From positions 62,001 through 126,000 of the forward strand of contig NZ_SBIU01000003.1 in the NCBI RefSeq assembly GCF_004765805.1: a stretch of DNA of 64,000 nt, written 5' to 3'. The translations under genes and the position numbers were made by a program. Positions 25,587-30,734 of this stretch are shown here, piece by piece. Numbering within the stretch: position 1 is the first letter of the stretch; every line of letters begins with the position of its first letter. The notes beneath the pieces were generated by a model. That model worked only from the letters and a program-made list of their open reading frames with translations. It was not told the DNA's origin and made no database searches. This stretch comes from Halorussus halobius (GTDB lineage Archaea > Halobacteriota > Halobacteria > Halobacteriales > Haladaptataceae).

Positions 25587-26039
25587 TCAGCCGTCGTCTC
25601 TCAGTTCCGCGCGCGCCTCTGCGGCTTCCGCGCCGACGTCGATACCCCGTCTGCGGGCGTACACCACGGCGGCGGCCTCGATGGTCACGCCGAGCCGTCC
25701 CTGGAGGTCGTTTATCTCGGCCACTGCGGTCTGTTTGTCCGTGTCCGCCGCGACCACTCTGTCGAGCAACTTCTCGAAGGTCGATTGTTCCTGCAAGATG
25801 GACTCGTCGGGGACGAAGGCTTCGGGAATCTCGACGTCCCCGGGGTCGAACGCCGCGACCACGTCGCCGTCCTCGCGGGCGAGCAGTCCCTGCCCGGCGG
25901 CCACGTCGACCAGTCGCTCGGCCTGGTCGGGCGAGAACCAGTCGCGGTCGAGCGACAGCGCGACCACGAACTCGCTCTCGGGCATCGATTCGGTCCCCTT
26001 CTGCTGGAACGGGGCGGCGACCGCACTCCGGAGGCTCAT
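25587..26039 (-). CDS. DUF2240 family protein
   Basis: 150 residues. A winged-helix-like N-terminal part (RSAVAAPFQQKGTESMPESEF through LVDVAAGQGLLARE) and a C-terminal helical region (FEKLLDRVVAADTDKQTAVAEINDLQ) match the archaeal DUF2240 family as I know it. The family is widespread in Euryarchaeota without an assigned activity; the fold hints at nucleic-acid or protein binding. Confidence 0.75.
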   Translation of the reverse strand: MSLRSAVAAPFQQKGTESMPESEFVVALSLDRDWFSPDQAERLVDVAAGQGLLAREDGDVVAAFDPGDVEIPEAFVPDESILQEQSTFEKLLDRVVAADTDKQTAVAEINDLQGRLGVTIEAAAVVYARRRGIDVGAEAAEARAELRDDG

Positions 26040-26147: not shown

Positions 26148-26417
26148 TTAGCAGATCGGCGACGGACTGCCGATGCACGGGAATTCGCTGCCACCGCCGC
26201 TCCCACCGCCACCACCGCCACCGCAGAGCAGCGAGATGTCACTCTCTATCTGAACCGGACAACTGTTGTCCGACGTGACGACGTCGATCTGGGTGGCACC
26301 GTCGTTCTCGACGTCCTGTGCGGTCGGGGCGTCGGCAGCAGCCCCGGTGGCCGTGAGTCCTGCGAGCAGTACGAGCGCCGCGAGTCCGAGTTTCGCCGTT
26401 TTTCGCATCATGGTCAT
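26148..26417 (-). CDS. Secreted four-cysteine, glycine-rich peptide (copy 1)
   Basis: 89 residues. A basic start (MTMMRKTAK) and hydrophobic core (LGLAALVLLAGLTATG) form a Sec signal, with a likely cut in GAAAD near residue 29. The mature part of about 60 residues has exactly four cysteines: Cys-Pro followed 11 residues on by Leu-Cys, then a run of seven glycines plus GGG, then Cys-x7-Cys at the very end. It shares signal, cysteine order and Cys-x11-Cys spacing with the neighbouring copy. It could be a microhalocin-like or signalling peptide, but that is inference. It has its own AT-rich promoter region. Confidence 0.75.
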   Translation of the reverse strand: MTMMRKTAKLGLAALVLLAGLTATGAAADAPTAQDVENDGATQIDVVTSDNSCPVQIESDISLLCGGGGGGGSGGGSEFPCIGSPSPIC

Positions 26418-26444
26418 CGATAACTTTTGTCTTGGAAGACATCA

Positions 26445-26453
26445 GCTATTATC
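26445..26453 (-). promoter_or_regulatory. TATA-like box of peptide copy 1
   Basis: On the minus strand GATAATAGC lies about 30 bases ahead of the ATG, inside a very AT-rich stretch that also contains TATTAATACTAATA further up. Each peptide gene has such a separate AT-rich upstream region, suggesting individual promoters. Confidence 0.45.
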
Positions 26454-26499
26454 GTCTAGTGGGTAAAATACTTTTTTATTAGTATTAATACTGGAACTT

Positions 26500-26667
26500 C
26501 TAGTGATGTACGGTACTCCGCGCATCCGAGCCGGCCGACGGACAGGGAAGAGTCGGGTCCGATGCGGACGAGGCCCGTCGCGCGTCGCCAGCGGCCGCAC
26601 CAGCCGTGAATCCAGCGAGTGCGACGAGCGCCGCGAGTCCGAACTTCGTCGTGTATCGAGTCCGGAC
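26500..26667 (-). pseudogene. Decayed third copy of the four-cysteine peptide
   Basis: The minus strand between the two intact copies reads RYTTKFGLAALVALAGFTAG and AAAGDARRASS, clearly the same signal peptide as the intact MRKTAKLGLAALVLLAGLTA type. There is no start codon in register, only one cysteine (LPCPS) remains, and the frame ends in an early TAG at 26500-26502. This is a dead paralogue. Confidence 0.7.
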
Positions 26668-26707
26668 CGAGCGACCGGGGAGAAAGCGATTTGTACCGTT
26701 CCGATAG

Positions 26708-26971
26708 TTAGCAGGGGATCAACGGGTCGTTACACGGGTCAGGACTGATAGGGATGTCGCCGCCACCGCCGCCACAGAGCGGCGACACGCCGCCCTGTAG
26801 CCTGAATGGACAGTCGTTGTTCGCCGTGACGACGTCGACCTGGGTGGCACCGTCGTCGGGCGTCACCTGCTGGGCGGCCTGACTGTCGGCAGCGGCCACG
26901 CCGCCGGTGATGCCCGCGAGCAACACGAATGCCGCGAGTCCGAGTTTCGCCGTTTTCCGTATCATGGTCAT
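26708..26971 (-). CDS. Secreted four-cysteine, glycine-rich peptide (copy 2)
   Basis: 87 residues. The signal MTMIRKTAKLGLAAFVLLAG is nearly identical to copy 1, cut near AAADS. The mature chain keeps DDGATQVDVVTANNDCP (compare NDGATQIDVVTSDNSCP in copy 1), Cys-x11-Cys, a five-glycine run and Cys-x6-Cys at the end. Conservation of the cysteine frame while other residues drift suggests selection for two disulfides in a secreted peptide. No export or immunity gene is adjacent. Function unknown. Confidence 0.75.
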   Translation of the reverse strand: MTMIRKTAKLGLAAFVLLAGITGGVAAADSQAAQQVTPDDGATQVDVVTANNDCPFRLQGGVSPLCGGGGGDIPISPDPCNDPLIPC

Positions 26972-27120
26972 CGGTAACTGGTTTCTATCCAGCCACCCGA
27001 CGTTGTATTCTCACACCTGAAGTATTTTTTCATAGAAATATCTACTATAATTCTACGTATAGCAGCGTGGTCGTGAGCTCCGACTCGAACCACCGAACGA
27101 AAAGGGGAGCGTGGGCTCCG

Positions 27121-27354
27121 TTACGTGTACTCGTCGCAGTCCCCGTAGTACTCGCCCGTACTGGGGTCGTACCGGCAGTCACAGTCGATCGGGTCGACGC
27201 AGTAGTCGAACGTGCCGACGTCGTCGGGCGTCGTCACGAGGTCGGCCCCGGCGTCGGCCGAGGTGTCGGCGACGGTCGCCCCCGCTCCGACGCCCGCGAG
27301 CAGGGTCGTGGTTGCCAGCGCCAGCAGCGTGGTGTACAGGATTGCTTTCTTCAT
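27121..27354 (-). CDS. Secreted four-cysteine acidic peptide (divergent member)
   Basis: 77 residues. The signal is MKKAILYTTLLALATTTLLAG with a cut near GATVAD. The mature part is acidic and also carries four cysteines, but arranged YCVDPIDCDC and GDCDEYT at the C-terminus and without the glycine run. Same strand, similar size and the same neighbourhood as the two glycine-rich copies, so probably a distant relative or functional partner. A perfect hairpin lies just before the start codon. Confidence 0.65.
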   Translation of the reverse strand: MKKAILYTTLLALATTTLLAGVGAGATVADTSADAGADLVTTPDDVGTFDYCVDPIDCDCRYDPSTGEYYGDCDEYT

Positions 27355-27365
27355 GGTGTTCTCAC

Positions 27366-27382
27366 GGGTGCGTGCGGCACCC
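27366..27382 (-). promoter_or_regulatory. Hairpin in the leader of the acidic peptide gene
   Basis: GGGTGC and GCACCC flank a five-base loop, 12 bases upstream of the ATG and downstream of AT-rich promoter sequence (TTTAATAATG near 27403-27412). It could be an operator or an RNA hairpin limiting translation. Confidence 0.4.
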
Positions 27383-27445
27383 AGGAAACATTATCCACGA
27401 AAACATTATTAAACTAATGGCTAGAAACGTGGAATATTATGGGGC

Positions 27446-27470
27446 GCGAGTCGAACGCTGTTCGACTCGC
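27446..27470. terminator. Perfect 11-bp hairpin downstream of aspS
   Basis: GCGAGTCGAAC and GTTCGACTCGC surround a three-base loop. It lies about 125 bases beyond the aspS stop and before the promoter of the acidic peptide gene. On the minus strand it is followed by an AT-rich tract, compatible with a terminator or an RNA processing site. Confidence 0.45.
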
Positions 27471-27595
27471 GGGAGCGACTCGCAGAGACGAGACAGCAGC
27501 CGACACCGCGAGGCGCGGACGCCTGCGGTCACGTCGGACGCCGGGAGGCGTCTCACACCACGTTCGCGGCTGGAACCTTCTACTCCCGGAGACCG

Positions 27596-28897
27596 TCAGG
27601 GCGAGAGCCGCTGGCGGTCCCGCGGGAACAGCACGGCCTCGCGGATGTTCTCCAAGCCCAACATCGTCATCACGAGTCGCTCGCCGCCCAGACCCCACCC
27701 GGCGTGGGGCGGCATGCCGTACTTGAACATCTTGGTGTAGTACTCGAACGCCTCGGGGTCGAGGCCCTGCTGTTCGAAGCCCTCGACGAGCCGGTCGTAG
27801 CGGTGTTCGCGCTGGCCGCCCGAGACGAGCTCCATGTTCGGAGCCATCAGGTCGAAGCCCGTCGAGAGGTCGGGGTCGTCGTCGTGGTCCTTGATGTAGA
27901 AGGGCTTGATCTCGCTGGGCCAGTCGGTGACGAAGTAGTGGCTCCCGACGTCCTCGCCGAGCGCCTTCTCGCCCTCGGTCGGCAGGTCGTCGCCCCACAC
28001 CAGTTGCTCGTCGAGCGCGCCCGTCGCGTTGATGCGCTCGATGGCCTCCTCGTAGGAGAGCCGGGGGAACTCGCCCGACGGGGCCTCGAAGTCCTCGTAG
28101 CCCAGTGCTTCGAGCTGCTCCTCGCAGTTCTCGGCGACGCCCTCGTAGGCGGCCTTCACGACGGTCTCGCAGGCGTCCATGGCGTCGTGGTGGTCGTAGA
28201 AGGCGCTCTCGAAGTCGATGGAGGTCGCCTCGTTGAGGTGGCGGGGCGTGTTGTGTTCCTCGGCCCGGAAGATGGGGCCGATCTCGAACACCCGTTCGAG
28301 GCCGGAGCCGACCATCAGCTGCTTGAACAGCTGGGGCGACTGGTTCATGAACGCCTCCTGCCCGAAGTAGGTGATGGGGAACAGCTCGGTGCCGCCCTCG
28401 GTGCCCGTCGCCACGATCTTGGGCGTGTTTATCTCCGTGCAACCGAGGTCGCGGAACGCCTCGCGGGCCGACCGCAGGACCTCCGCGCGAATCTCGAAGA
28501 CGGCCTTGGATTCGGCCTTCCGGAGGTCGAGGGTGCGGTTGTCCAGTCGAGTCGAGAGGTCAGCGTCGACCTTGCCCGAGGGGTCGAGCGGGAGTTCGGG
28601 GTCGGCCTCGGCGACGACCTCGACCGACTCGGGGACGATTTCGACGCCGGTCGGGGCTCGCTCCTCGGCCTCGACGTCGCCCGAGACCTGCACGACGCTC
28701 TCGCGGTTGACGTTCGTGCCGGTCTCGACGAGGTCGTCGTCCATCTCGTCTTTCTCGAACTTGACCTGAATCTTGCCGGTGGTGTCCCGGACGATGAGGA
28801 ATGCGATGCCGCCGAGGTCGCGTATCTCGTGGGCCCAGCCGGCGACCGTCGCGCTGTCGCCGGGTTCGGCGTCCGCCGCGTACGTTCGGTCTTCCAT
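27596..28897 (-). CDS. aspS: Aspartyl-tRNA synthetase (archaeal type)
   Basis: 433 residues from [14 protein letters not shown]. An OB-fold anticodon domain (about 15-105) leads into the class II core: motif 2 around [21 protein letters not shown] and motif 3 in [28 protein letters not shown] at the C-terminus. It charges tRNA-Asp, and in archaea lacking AsnRS often tRNA-Asn as well. The start is set by a TATA-like box (GCGTTTAAGA) 24 bases upstream; a further upstream in-frame start would lie inside that box. Confidence 0.95.
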
Positions 28898-28920
28898 ACG
28901 CGTGGATTCTGTCGGGCCGG

Positions 28921-28930
28921 TCTTAAACGC
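28921..28930 (-). promoter_or_regulatory. TATA box of aspS
   Basis: GCGTTTAAGA on the minus strand, 24 bases before the ATG, implies a leaderless aspS message. Confidence 0.6.
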
Positions 28931-28996
28931 GGTCATTTGAATCGGGCGGCCGTCGCGAGCGAGCCCCGGTCACTCTACCGGGCGTGTGCCAACTCG

Positions 28997-29797
28997 TCAC
29001 TCGATGTCCGTCCGGCCGAACCACCACGCGCTTACCGCCACGAGGACGGCCGTTCCGGCGAGCAGGACGGCCGCGCCCGCCAGGTCGTACTCGCCCGAGA
29101 CCAGCACGGCGGTCGGGTCGTAGTACCGGGTCGGGCTGACCGCGCCCAGCAACCCCACGTCGGCGGCCCCGCTGACGGTCTCCAGCAAGAAGAGACCGAA
29201 GATGGCACCGAGGCCCCCGCGCTTGGCCACGTCCGAGTCGCCGACCGCGACCGAGAGGACGAGCCCGATGGCACCGCAGGCCAGCAGGTAGGGAATCGAC
29301 AGCAGGTGGACCGCCGCGAGGTCGGCGGCCGGAACCGACTCGCCGATGACGAGCACGCTGGCGTACACCACCGCACCGACCACGAGGTTGAGTGCGAGGA
29401 CGCCCGGCACCAGCGAGAGGAACTTCTCGACCACGACCCGGCGGCGGGTGACGGGCGCGGCGAGCAACACGTCCATCCGGCCGCGCTCGACGTCGCCCGC
29501 GACGAGGCCGCCCGCCTGATAGGCGACGTAGACGCCCAGCATCAGCAGCCAGAAGAACTGGTAGAGCTCCACCGCCAGAAAGCCCTCGATGGTCGCGATG
29601 GAGAACGCGCCGGTCGCGCCGAACGCCGCCTGCATCGCGGGCGGCAGGCTCGCCACGTAGGCGTCGAGGTCCGCGCCCGAATTGGCGATGGAGGGGAACA
29701 GCCCGACGAACAGCACCGACATGACCGCCAGCAGGACCGCCAGCACCAGCGCGCCCGTGAGGCGGCGCTCGGCCTCGTACTCGGCGATGTCAAGCAT
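28997..29797 (-). CDS. ABC-2 type exporter permease
   Basis: 266 residues with about six transmembrane helices (first at about 15-35) and the long extracytoplasmic loop after helix 1 (ANSGADLDAYVASLPPAMQAAF) typical of ABC-2 permeases of the NatB/Nod type. VERGRMDVLLAAPVTRRRVVVEKF is the usual cytoplasmic coupling stretch. Its start overlaps the ATPase gene stop by eight bases, so the two subunits are translated together. Substrate unknown; lipids, drugs or peptides are all possible for this class. Confidence 0.88.
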   Translation of the reverse strand: MLDIAEYEAERRLTGALVLAVLLAVMSVLFVGLFPSIANSGADLDAYVASLPPAMQAAFGATGAFSIATIEGFLAVELYQFFWLLMLGVYVAYQAGGLVAGDVERGRMDVLLAAPVTRRRVVVEKFLSLVPGVLALNLVVGAVVYASVLVIGESVPAADLAAVHLLSIPYLLACGAIGLVLSVAVGDSDVAKRGGLGAIFGLFLLETVSGAADVGLLGAVSPTRYYDPTAVLVSGEYDLAGAAVLLAGTAVLVAVSAWWFGRTDIE

Positions 29798-30734
29798 CCC
29801 GCTCGCCTCCCGCGACCGCCGACCGCTCCGGGCCGACCGCACGGCCGTCGGAGTGCTCGCCGTAAAAGCGCATGAACACGTCTTCGAGGGGCGCTTCCTC
29901 GACGTCGAGGTCACGGACCCGGTAGTTCTGGAGGTGGTCGAGCAGCGCGTCGTACTCCCCGGTGAACATGAACGAGGCGGTACCCCGCTCGGCGTCGACG
30001 TCGAGGTCGTGGACGCCCGCGAACGCGAACTCCCCGGGGTCGAGGCTGTCCTCGACCGCGACCGAGACGTGCTTGCCGCTCCGGTCGAGCAGGTCCTCGA
30101 CGCCCTCCAGCGCGGCCAGACGGCCGTCACGGACGATGCCCACGCGGTCACAGACCTTCCGGACCTCGCTCAGGATGTGACTGGAGAAGAAGACGGTGGT
30201 GCCCCGGTCCCGTTCCTCGCGGACGAACTCGTAGAGCCGTTCCTGCATCAGAGGGTCGAGTCCCGACGTGGGCTCGTCCATGATGACGAGGTCGGGGTCG
30301 TGCATGAACGTCAACACGAGCGCGAGCTTCTGGCGGTTGCCCGTGGAGTACTCGCCCACTTCGCGGTCGACCGGCGCGTCGAACAGGTCGAGGAGGTCGT
30401 CGCTGCGCTCGTCGCCCTTCAGGTCGGCGTGATACTCGACGAGCCGCCGGCCGGTCACGCCCTCGTCGAATCCGGGGTCGCTCGGGAGGTAGCCGAGCCG
30501 TCGCTTGGCCGCGACGAGCGCGGACTCGTCGGTCACGTCCCGGCCGAGCACGGTCGCCGAGCCGGCGGTCGGCGAGAGCAGCCCCAGCAGGGTCCGGATG
30601 GCCGTCGTCTTGCCCGCGCCGTTCGGCCCGAGGAAGCCGAACACCTCGCCCGACTCGACCTCGAACGAGAGACCCTCGATGCCCCGCGTGTCGCCGTAGT
30701 ACTTCGTGAGCCCCGAGGTTTCTATCGCGCCCAT
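29790..30734 (-). CDS. ABC exporter ATP-binding protein
   Basis: 314 residues. Walker A is GPNGAGKTT, the signature region reads VGEYSTGNRQKLALVLTFM, Walker B is LVIMDEPTSGLD and the switch histidine is in FFSSHILSEV. The C-terminal DUF4162-like region follows. It powers the ABC-2 permease encoded next. The canonical LSGGQ is replaced by YSTGN, which is common in this subfamily. Promoter sequence lies in the short gap to the divergent Lrp gene. Confidence 0.93.
   Translation of the reverse strand: MGAIETSGLTKYYGDTRGIEGLSFEVESGEVFGFLGPNGAGKTTAIRTLLGLLSPTAGSATVLGRDVTDESALVAAKRRLGYLPSDPGFDEGVTGRRLVEYHADLKGDERSDDLLDLFDAPVDREVGEYSTGNRQKLALVLTFMHDPDLVIMDEPTSGLDPLMQERLYEFVREERDRGTTVFFSSHILSEVRKVCDRVGIVRDGRLAALEGVEDLLDRSGKHVSVAVEDSLDPGEFAFAGVHDLDVDAERGTASFMFTGEYDALLDHLQNYRVRDLDVEEAPLEDVFMRFYGEHSDGRAVGPERSAVAGGERDA

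Follow-up and report, generated by a model that had tools for sequence, protein, structure and literature searches.

The locus downstream of aspS in the window analysed here (the whole stretch of DNA, 64 kb in length) encodes two members, A and B, of a family of small, exported-looking four-cysteine peptides, which, judged from profile searches, appears to be previously undescribed and restricted to Halorussus. Their architecture and the way they have evolved agree with a peptide that is secreted and works extracellularly, and a role in defence, competition or signalling, as put forward in the original prediction, is plausible. The most likely single reading, which we hold tentatively, is that A and B are microhalocin-like peptides, exported via Sec to antagonise related haloarchaea.

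The peptide locus beside aspS

Three intact short genes had been predicted at this place, and ORFs of 89, 87 and 77 aa were indeed found there on the minus strand (Table 1). On this strand, the gene order 3' of aspS is C, B, relic and A, followed by a DUF2240 gene. The AspRS encoded in the window has its best named match in H. litoreus (93%), and the genome is Halorussus-like. A, B and C each carry N-terminal Lys/Arg residues, a hydrophobic segment and an AxA-like region; their signal peptides were assessed from composition. An AT-rich block lies ~40-85 nt 5' of the ATG in these three genes and in the remaining family genes. The start codons of A and B are probably the downstream in-frame ATGs, because the homologue in genome G014 starts with MIRK; A would then comprise 86 aa.

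Table 1. Features of the peptide locus, in window coordinates. AT-rich blocks were recognised from the sequence alone.
Feature	Coordinates	Strand	Remarks
DUF2240 gene, neighbour past A	25587..26039	-	away from aspS in relatives examined
Peptide A, 89 aa	26148..26417	-	Sec-type signal, acidic spacer, core C-x11-C-x15-C-x7-C, glycine run; profile E 1.4e-29
AT-rich block 5' of A	26460..26493	-	TATA-like
Relic of a third family member, 77 nt	26582..26658	-	signal-peptide part, start codon absent; alignment against shuffles, profile match
Peptide B, 87 aa, family of A	26708..26971	-	core C-x11-C-x13-C-x6-C; profile E 3.8e-32
AT-rich block 5' of B	27019..27057	-	TATA-like
Peptide C, 77 aa, unrelated family	27121..27354	-	FDYCVDPIDCDCRYDPSTGEYYGDC core, C-x5-C-x-C-x12-C, net charge -8
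AT-rich block 5' of C	27399..27442	-	TATA-like
aspS (aspartyl-tRNA synthetase)	27596..28936	-	syntenic anchor of the locus
ABC-2 permease and ATPase (exporter pair)	28997-30734		beyond aspS

A and B align along their length with 58% identity and have in common the features already ascribed to them, namely Cys-Pro, C-x11-C, a glycine run and a terminal cysteine pair. The sequence between them matches the signal-peptide part of A with a local score of 64 (maximum of 200 shuffles: 29) and is also matched by the family profile (E 1.2e-5). These alignments indicate that A and B are paralogues, with a decayed third copy between them. The predicted dead copy is thus real, but it amounts to a relic of the signal peptide: the core, the start codon and an AT-rich promoter of its own are all absent. 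Accordingly, the proposal that each copy has a signal and its own promoter region holds for A, B and C, but not for the relic.

The chance background was gauged with a crude filter that demands a signal and at least three later cysteines. A and B were the only ORFs in the 64-kb window to pass; C misses the filter, its hydrophobicity being under the threshold. On 1.65 Mb of other haloarchaeal loci, which were chosen as neighbours of aspS, PPS, LanM or family genes, overlap in part and are not a random sample, nine matches were obtained, seven of which belong to the A/B or C family; the H. halobius copy appears twice among these seven. The occurrence of cysteine peptides A and B exceeds chance.

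Peptide C lacks a glycine run, and its four cysteines are differently spaced. Its relative in Haladaptatus halobius (L037:7674-7886) is located directly 3' of aspS, between aspS and the pantoate kinase gene (PoK), i.e., on the same side of aspS as C in the window, and the C family is present in two of the 392 genomes searched. Between these two copies the core YCVD..DCDCRYDP.TGEY.GDC is strongly conserved (dN 0.15, dS 1.0), whereas signal and spacer drift (signal dN 0.62), which is opposite to the A/B family. Because the cysteine pattern differs, the glycine run is absent and the pattern of conservation is reversed, C is not a diverged copy of A or B, and the locus holds two peptide families that are unrelated but adjacent; the single diverging array originally proposed is therefore limited to A, B and the relic. 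AlphaFold gave a low-confidence beta-hairpin for C (pLDDT 55.2 overall, 70s across the core) and a model without a confident fold for B (pLDDT 47.5). C is probably a second exported cysteine peptide with a hairpin-like conserved core and a different role.

Distribution, synteny and evolution of the A/B family

Profile searches covered 18 Halorussus genomes, then 28 genomes of the taxonomic family, and then 392 haloarchaeal genomes of the order. Such a genome search, which had been proposed along with the original prediction, gave profile matches in 5 of the 18 Halorussus genomes, and among the 392 haloarchaeal genomes the family was seen in Halorussus alone. It comprises seven genes: A and B, a pair in G014, and single genes in G004, G009 and G016. 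E-values of the family profile across the five genomes range from 1e-24 to 1e-34. A core-only profile, from which the signal peptide was excluded, recovered the same seven genes (E 1e-11 to 1e-19) and nothing convincing outside Halorussus among the 392 genomes; the weak matches, inspected singly, were mostly chance frames. Searches of Pfam, NCBIfam, PHROGs and PDB sequences returned no credible match for the A/B family, and searches of plasmids and viral contigs with B and C revealed no relatives, and so nothing that points to an origin from plasmids or viruses.

Two further ORFs may be mentioned here. A 106-aa exported-looking ORF in G002 (L181:5065-5385), with six cysteines and an AT-rich block upstream, is a doubtful eighth relative, since its profile match (E 2.2e-6) lies chiefly in the signal. 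The core profile also matched a 343-aa Haladaptatus protein (L213 1411-2439) with E 0.001 per genome, where about one such match is expected by chance in 392. This protein looks exported, has a twin-arginine-type start and is without Pfam or NCBIfam matches; just past its signal it contains CSSDISTQCSGGGGG, a stretch similar to the first loop in the peptide of G016 (CSLSGISTQCGGGGG). As a possible family relative it is a lead only.

All seven intact members, including A and B, follow one pattern: a Sec-type signal, an acidic spacer, and a core of exactly four cysteines (C-x8-11-C-x4-15-C-x6-8-C), the last of which is at or near the C-terminus. The spacings are 11-15-7 (A), 11-13-6 (B), 10-5-7, 11-10-6, 9-5-7, 8-4-7 and 8-7-8, and the stretch between the second and third cysteine is Gly-rich in most members. 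The cores have net charges of -2 to -4 and are without clear hydrophobic or amphipathic character.

The gene order aspS, PoK and PPS (phosphopantothenate synthetase) is kept across the genus, and the site between PoK and PPS holds a family member in G014 and G016. A second common site, between a rhodanese-like gene and uvrB and beside the MSSLG gene, holds a member in G004, G009 and G014; at this site, no filter-passing peptide was found in the window's own genome. The window lacks the PoK-PPS pair beside aspS (27354-27596 region). PPS was found neither by protein search nor with the Pfam model PF02006 in the window's assembly (G000, 99.99% complete), and likewise not in G007 or the H. litoreus genome, which are possibly one and the same. 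PPS is required in archaeal CoA synthesis, and its absence reflects either a lineage loss with an alternative route or assembly gaps.

Across the family's sites, no immunity, processing, regulatory or dedicated export gene was found to accompany the peptides. The earlier statement that neither immunity nor export genes are nearby thus stands for dedicated genes, but overlooks the ABC-2 exporter pair beyond aspS. The ABC-2 permease and ATPase, an AsnC-type regulator and an amino-acid permease are located near aspS in many peptide-free relatives. Since it is kept there without peptides, the exporter is not considered peptide-specific and was rejected as a partner, as was the AsnC-type regulator.

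Substitution rates differ between signal and core. For the pair A and B, dN is 0.12 in the signal and 0.37 in the core; for the syntenic copies of G004 and G009, the values are 0.14 and 0.44, with dS of 0.63-1.08. These figures derive from short sequences, with several dS values saturated. They indicate that the core evolves in a relaxed or faster manner on a fixed scaffold, and give no sign of positive selection: in all core comparisons pN stays under pS, and no arms race is therefore claimed. Only some genomes of the genus carry the family, which also includes duplicates and a single relic. The predicted course of duplication, divergence and death thus describes A, B, the relic and the wider family, with its fixed scaffold, drifting core and patchy occurrence, but it does not extend to C and shows no sign of positive selection.

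Possible roles and known systems

Antagonism is ranked as the likeliest single role because small exported peptides of haloarchaea are known to date chiefly as halocins, which is reasoning by precedent. Among these, HalS8 and HalC8 contain cysteine and are released from precursors that have ~280-310 aa and Tat-type signals, unlike A, B and C, whose precursors have 77-89 aa and a Sec-type signal. Like the microhalocins HalS8 and HalC8, with masses of 3.58 and 7.4 kDa (PMC8699383), A, B and C would be small exported haloarchaeal peptides. A hydrophobic signal, an AxA-like region and four cysteines were found, corresponding to the export signal and small cysteine-containing core expected of a microhalocin; A, B and C matched no halocin family model of Pfam or NCBIfam at E <= 10. 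In Haloferax mediterranei, HFX_0892 (HmHapP) is described as a secreted precursor that is activated by protease and frees an antagonistic fragment (PMC12893001). It is larger than A and B and requires N-terminal alpha-helices for activity, and the text describing it mentions neither cysteines nor disulfides.

For A and B, the precursor would be exported via Sec and lose its signal and perhaps also the acidic spacer of ~20 residues. The product would be an acidic core, roughly 27-40 residues long and containing four cysteines. In the simplest pairing, these cysteines could close two small disulfide loops (C1-C2 and C3-C4), and the linker between the loops varies and is glycine-rich in most members. 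The mature core might then antagonise related haloarchaea, with producer resistance being intrinsic or encoded elsewhere. Expression, export, cleavage and disulfide pairing of A and B are what we infer; their antagonism is a guess. In its favour count the bounded cysteine scaffold, a signal more conserved than the core, and the patchy presence with duplicates and a relic; against it count the low core pN, the lack of immunity, processing or regulatory genes that travel with the family, the acidic cores without clear hydrophobic or amphipathic character, and the missing match to halocin models. A fairly unlikely proposition goes further: the peptides would form a class of haloarchaeal antimicrobials not described before, exported via Sec and folded into two disulfide loops. 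Their genes would stand alone among housekeeping genes, lack associated genes for immunity, modification or dedicated export, and diversify by duplication and decay in one genus. If the peptides do inhibit neighbours, haloarchaea would be able to make disulfide antimicrobials by a short route that depends on Sec, and mining by modification enzymes or large halocin precursors would overlook such peptides. Regardless of their role, a usable profile (cysteine spacing and signal) and located syntenic relatives are now at hand for bench tests of the family.

A possible, if somewhat unlikely, alternative is that the peptides are loosely constrained accessories of the extracellular space or envelope, which associate with the S-layer, inhibit proteases or handle redox or metals. 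The low pN in the cores would agree with such a role, and the conserved core of C, with its net charge of -8 and weak beta-hairpin model, suits binding better than an arms race; the narrow distribution of both families speaks against an accessory of this kind, and the PDB search yielded no relative. Self- or community-signalling is an unlikely explanation: peptides that leave the cell, undergo trimming and are detected by a receptor at the surface could shift their specificity as the core drifts. Small size, export and a fixed scaffold with a variable core would be expected of such signals, as would the apparently single-gene units, each with its own AT-rich upstream block, but no sensor or receptor gene common to the family sites was found, and occurrence within the genus is patchy. 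Taken together, the signalling and envelope or inhibitor roles are about as likely as antagonism.

It is quite improbable that the genes are young orphans of little function that are gained and lost. Their narrow distribution, the relic and the empty second site of the window's genome would be in keeping with such turnover; against it speak the four-cysteine scaffold kept in all seven members, the excess of pS over pN, and the synteny of copies from different species at each of two loci. Zinc-finger micro-proteins of Haloferax, which contain two C(P)XCG motifs each (PMC11241148), resemble A and B in size and in having four cysteines, but A and B have a signal peptide and no C(P)XCG motif. This assignment was rejected, as the spacings are 11-15-7, 11-13-6 and 5-1-12 and no CxxC pair occurs in any of the three peptides.

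Archaeal class II lanthipeptides (archalans and larlans) are known from Halorussus and Haloferax (PMC12144867). They are small cysteine-rich peptides from the same genus as A and B, but are LanM-adjacent and have an acidic leader without a signal peptide. That A, B and C are lanthipeptide precursors, modified in trans by a LanM encoded elsewhere in the genome, is highly improbable: a LanM is present in the window's genome, and all seven family members have a Ser/Thr three residues ahead of the second cysteine, but Sec-type signals differ from LanM leaders, LanM is absent from every family site, and the LanM of this genome lies on another contig (C1:1327471) beside its own LanA-like peptides, two ORFs of 50-59 aa with acidic leaders and no signal, which bear no resemblance to A, B or C. 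Counted in favour of the antagonist reading, LanM synthases occur in all five carrier genomes, compared to 11 of 18 in the genus (one-sided hypergeometric ~0.054), an association that weakens if the doubtful relative in G002, a genome without LanM, is counted.

Several LanM neighbourhoods deserve mention in their own right. The class II locus of the window's genome (G000:C1 L187 6528-10283) consists of LanM and two divergent LanA-like ORFs with the cores ...GSTGCHVSDKPLC... and ...GTSCPESLSVQPAC..., the first of which is near the described PelA core STGCYISDKPVCI. In G011 (C8, L201 7192-10684), LanM and a small cysteine-rich ORF are located beside a cold-shock gene and PPS, in the aspS-PoK-PPS neighbourhood that hosts secreted peptides in other species. 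Finally, an 88-aa ORF near a LanM in G009 (L190 2186-2452), whose start is twin-arginine-like and whose acidic C-terminus contains many cysteines (CEENPDCCVFDCSDCPYDCYDGCRC), is a further candidate for an exported cysteine peptide.
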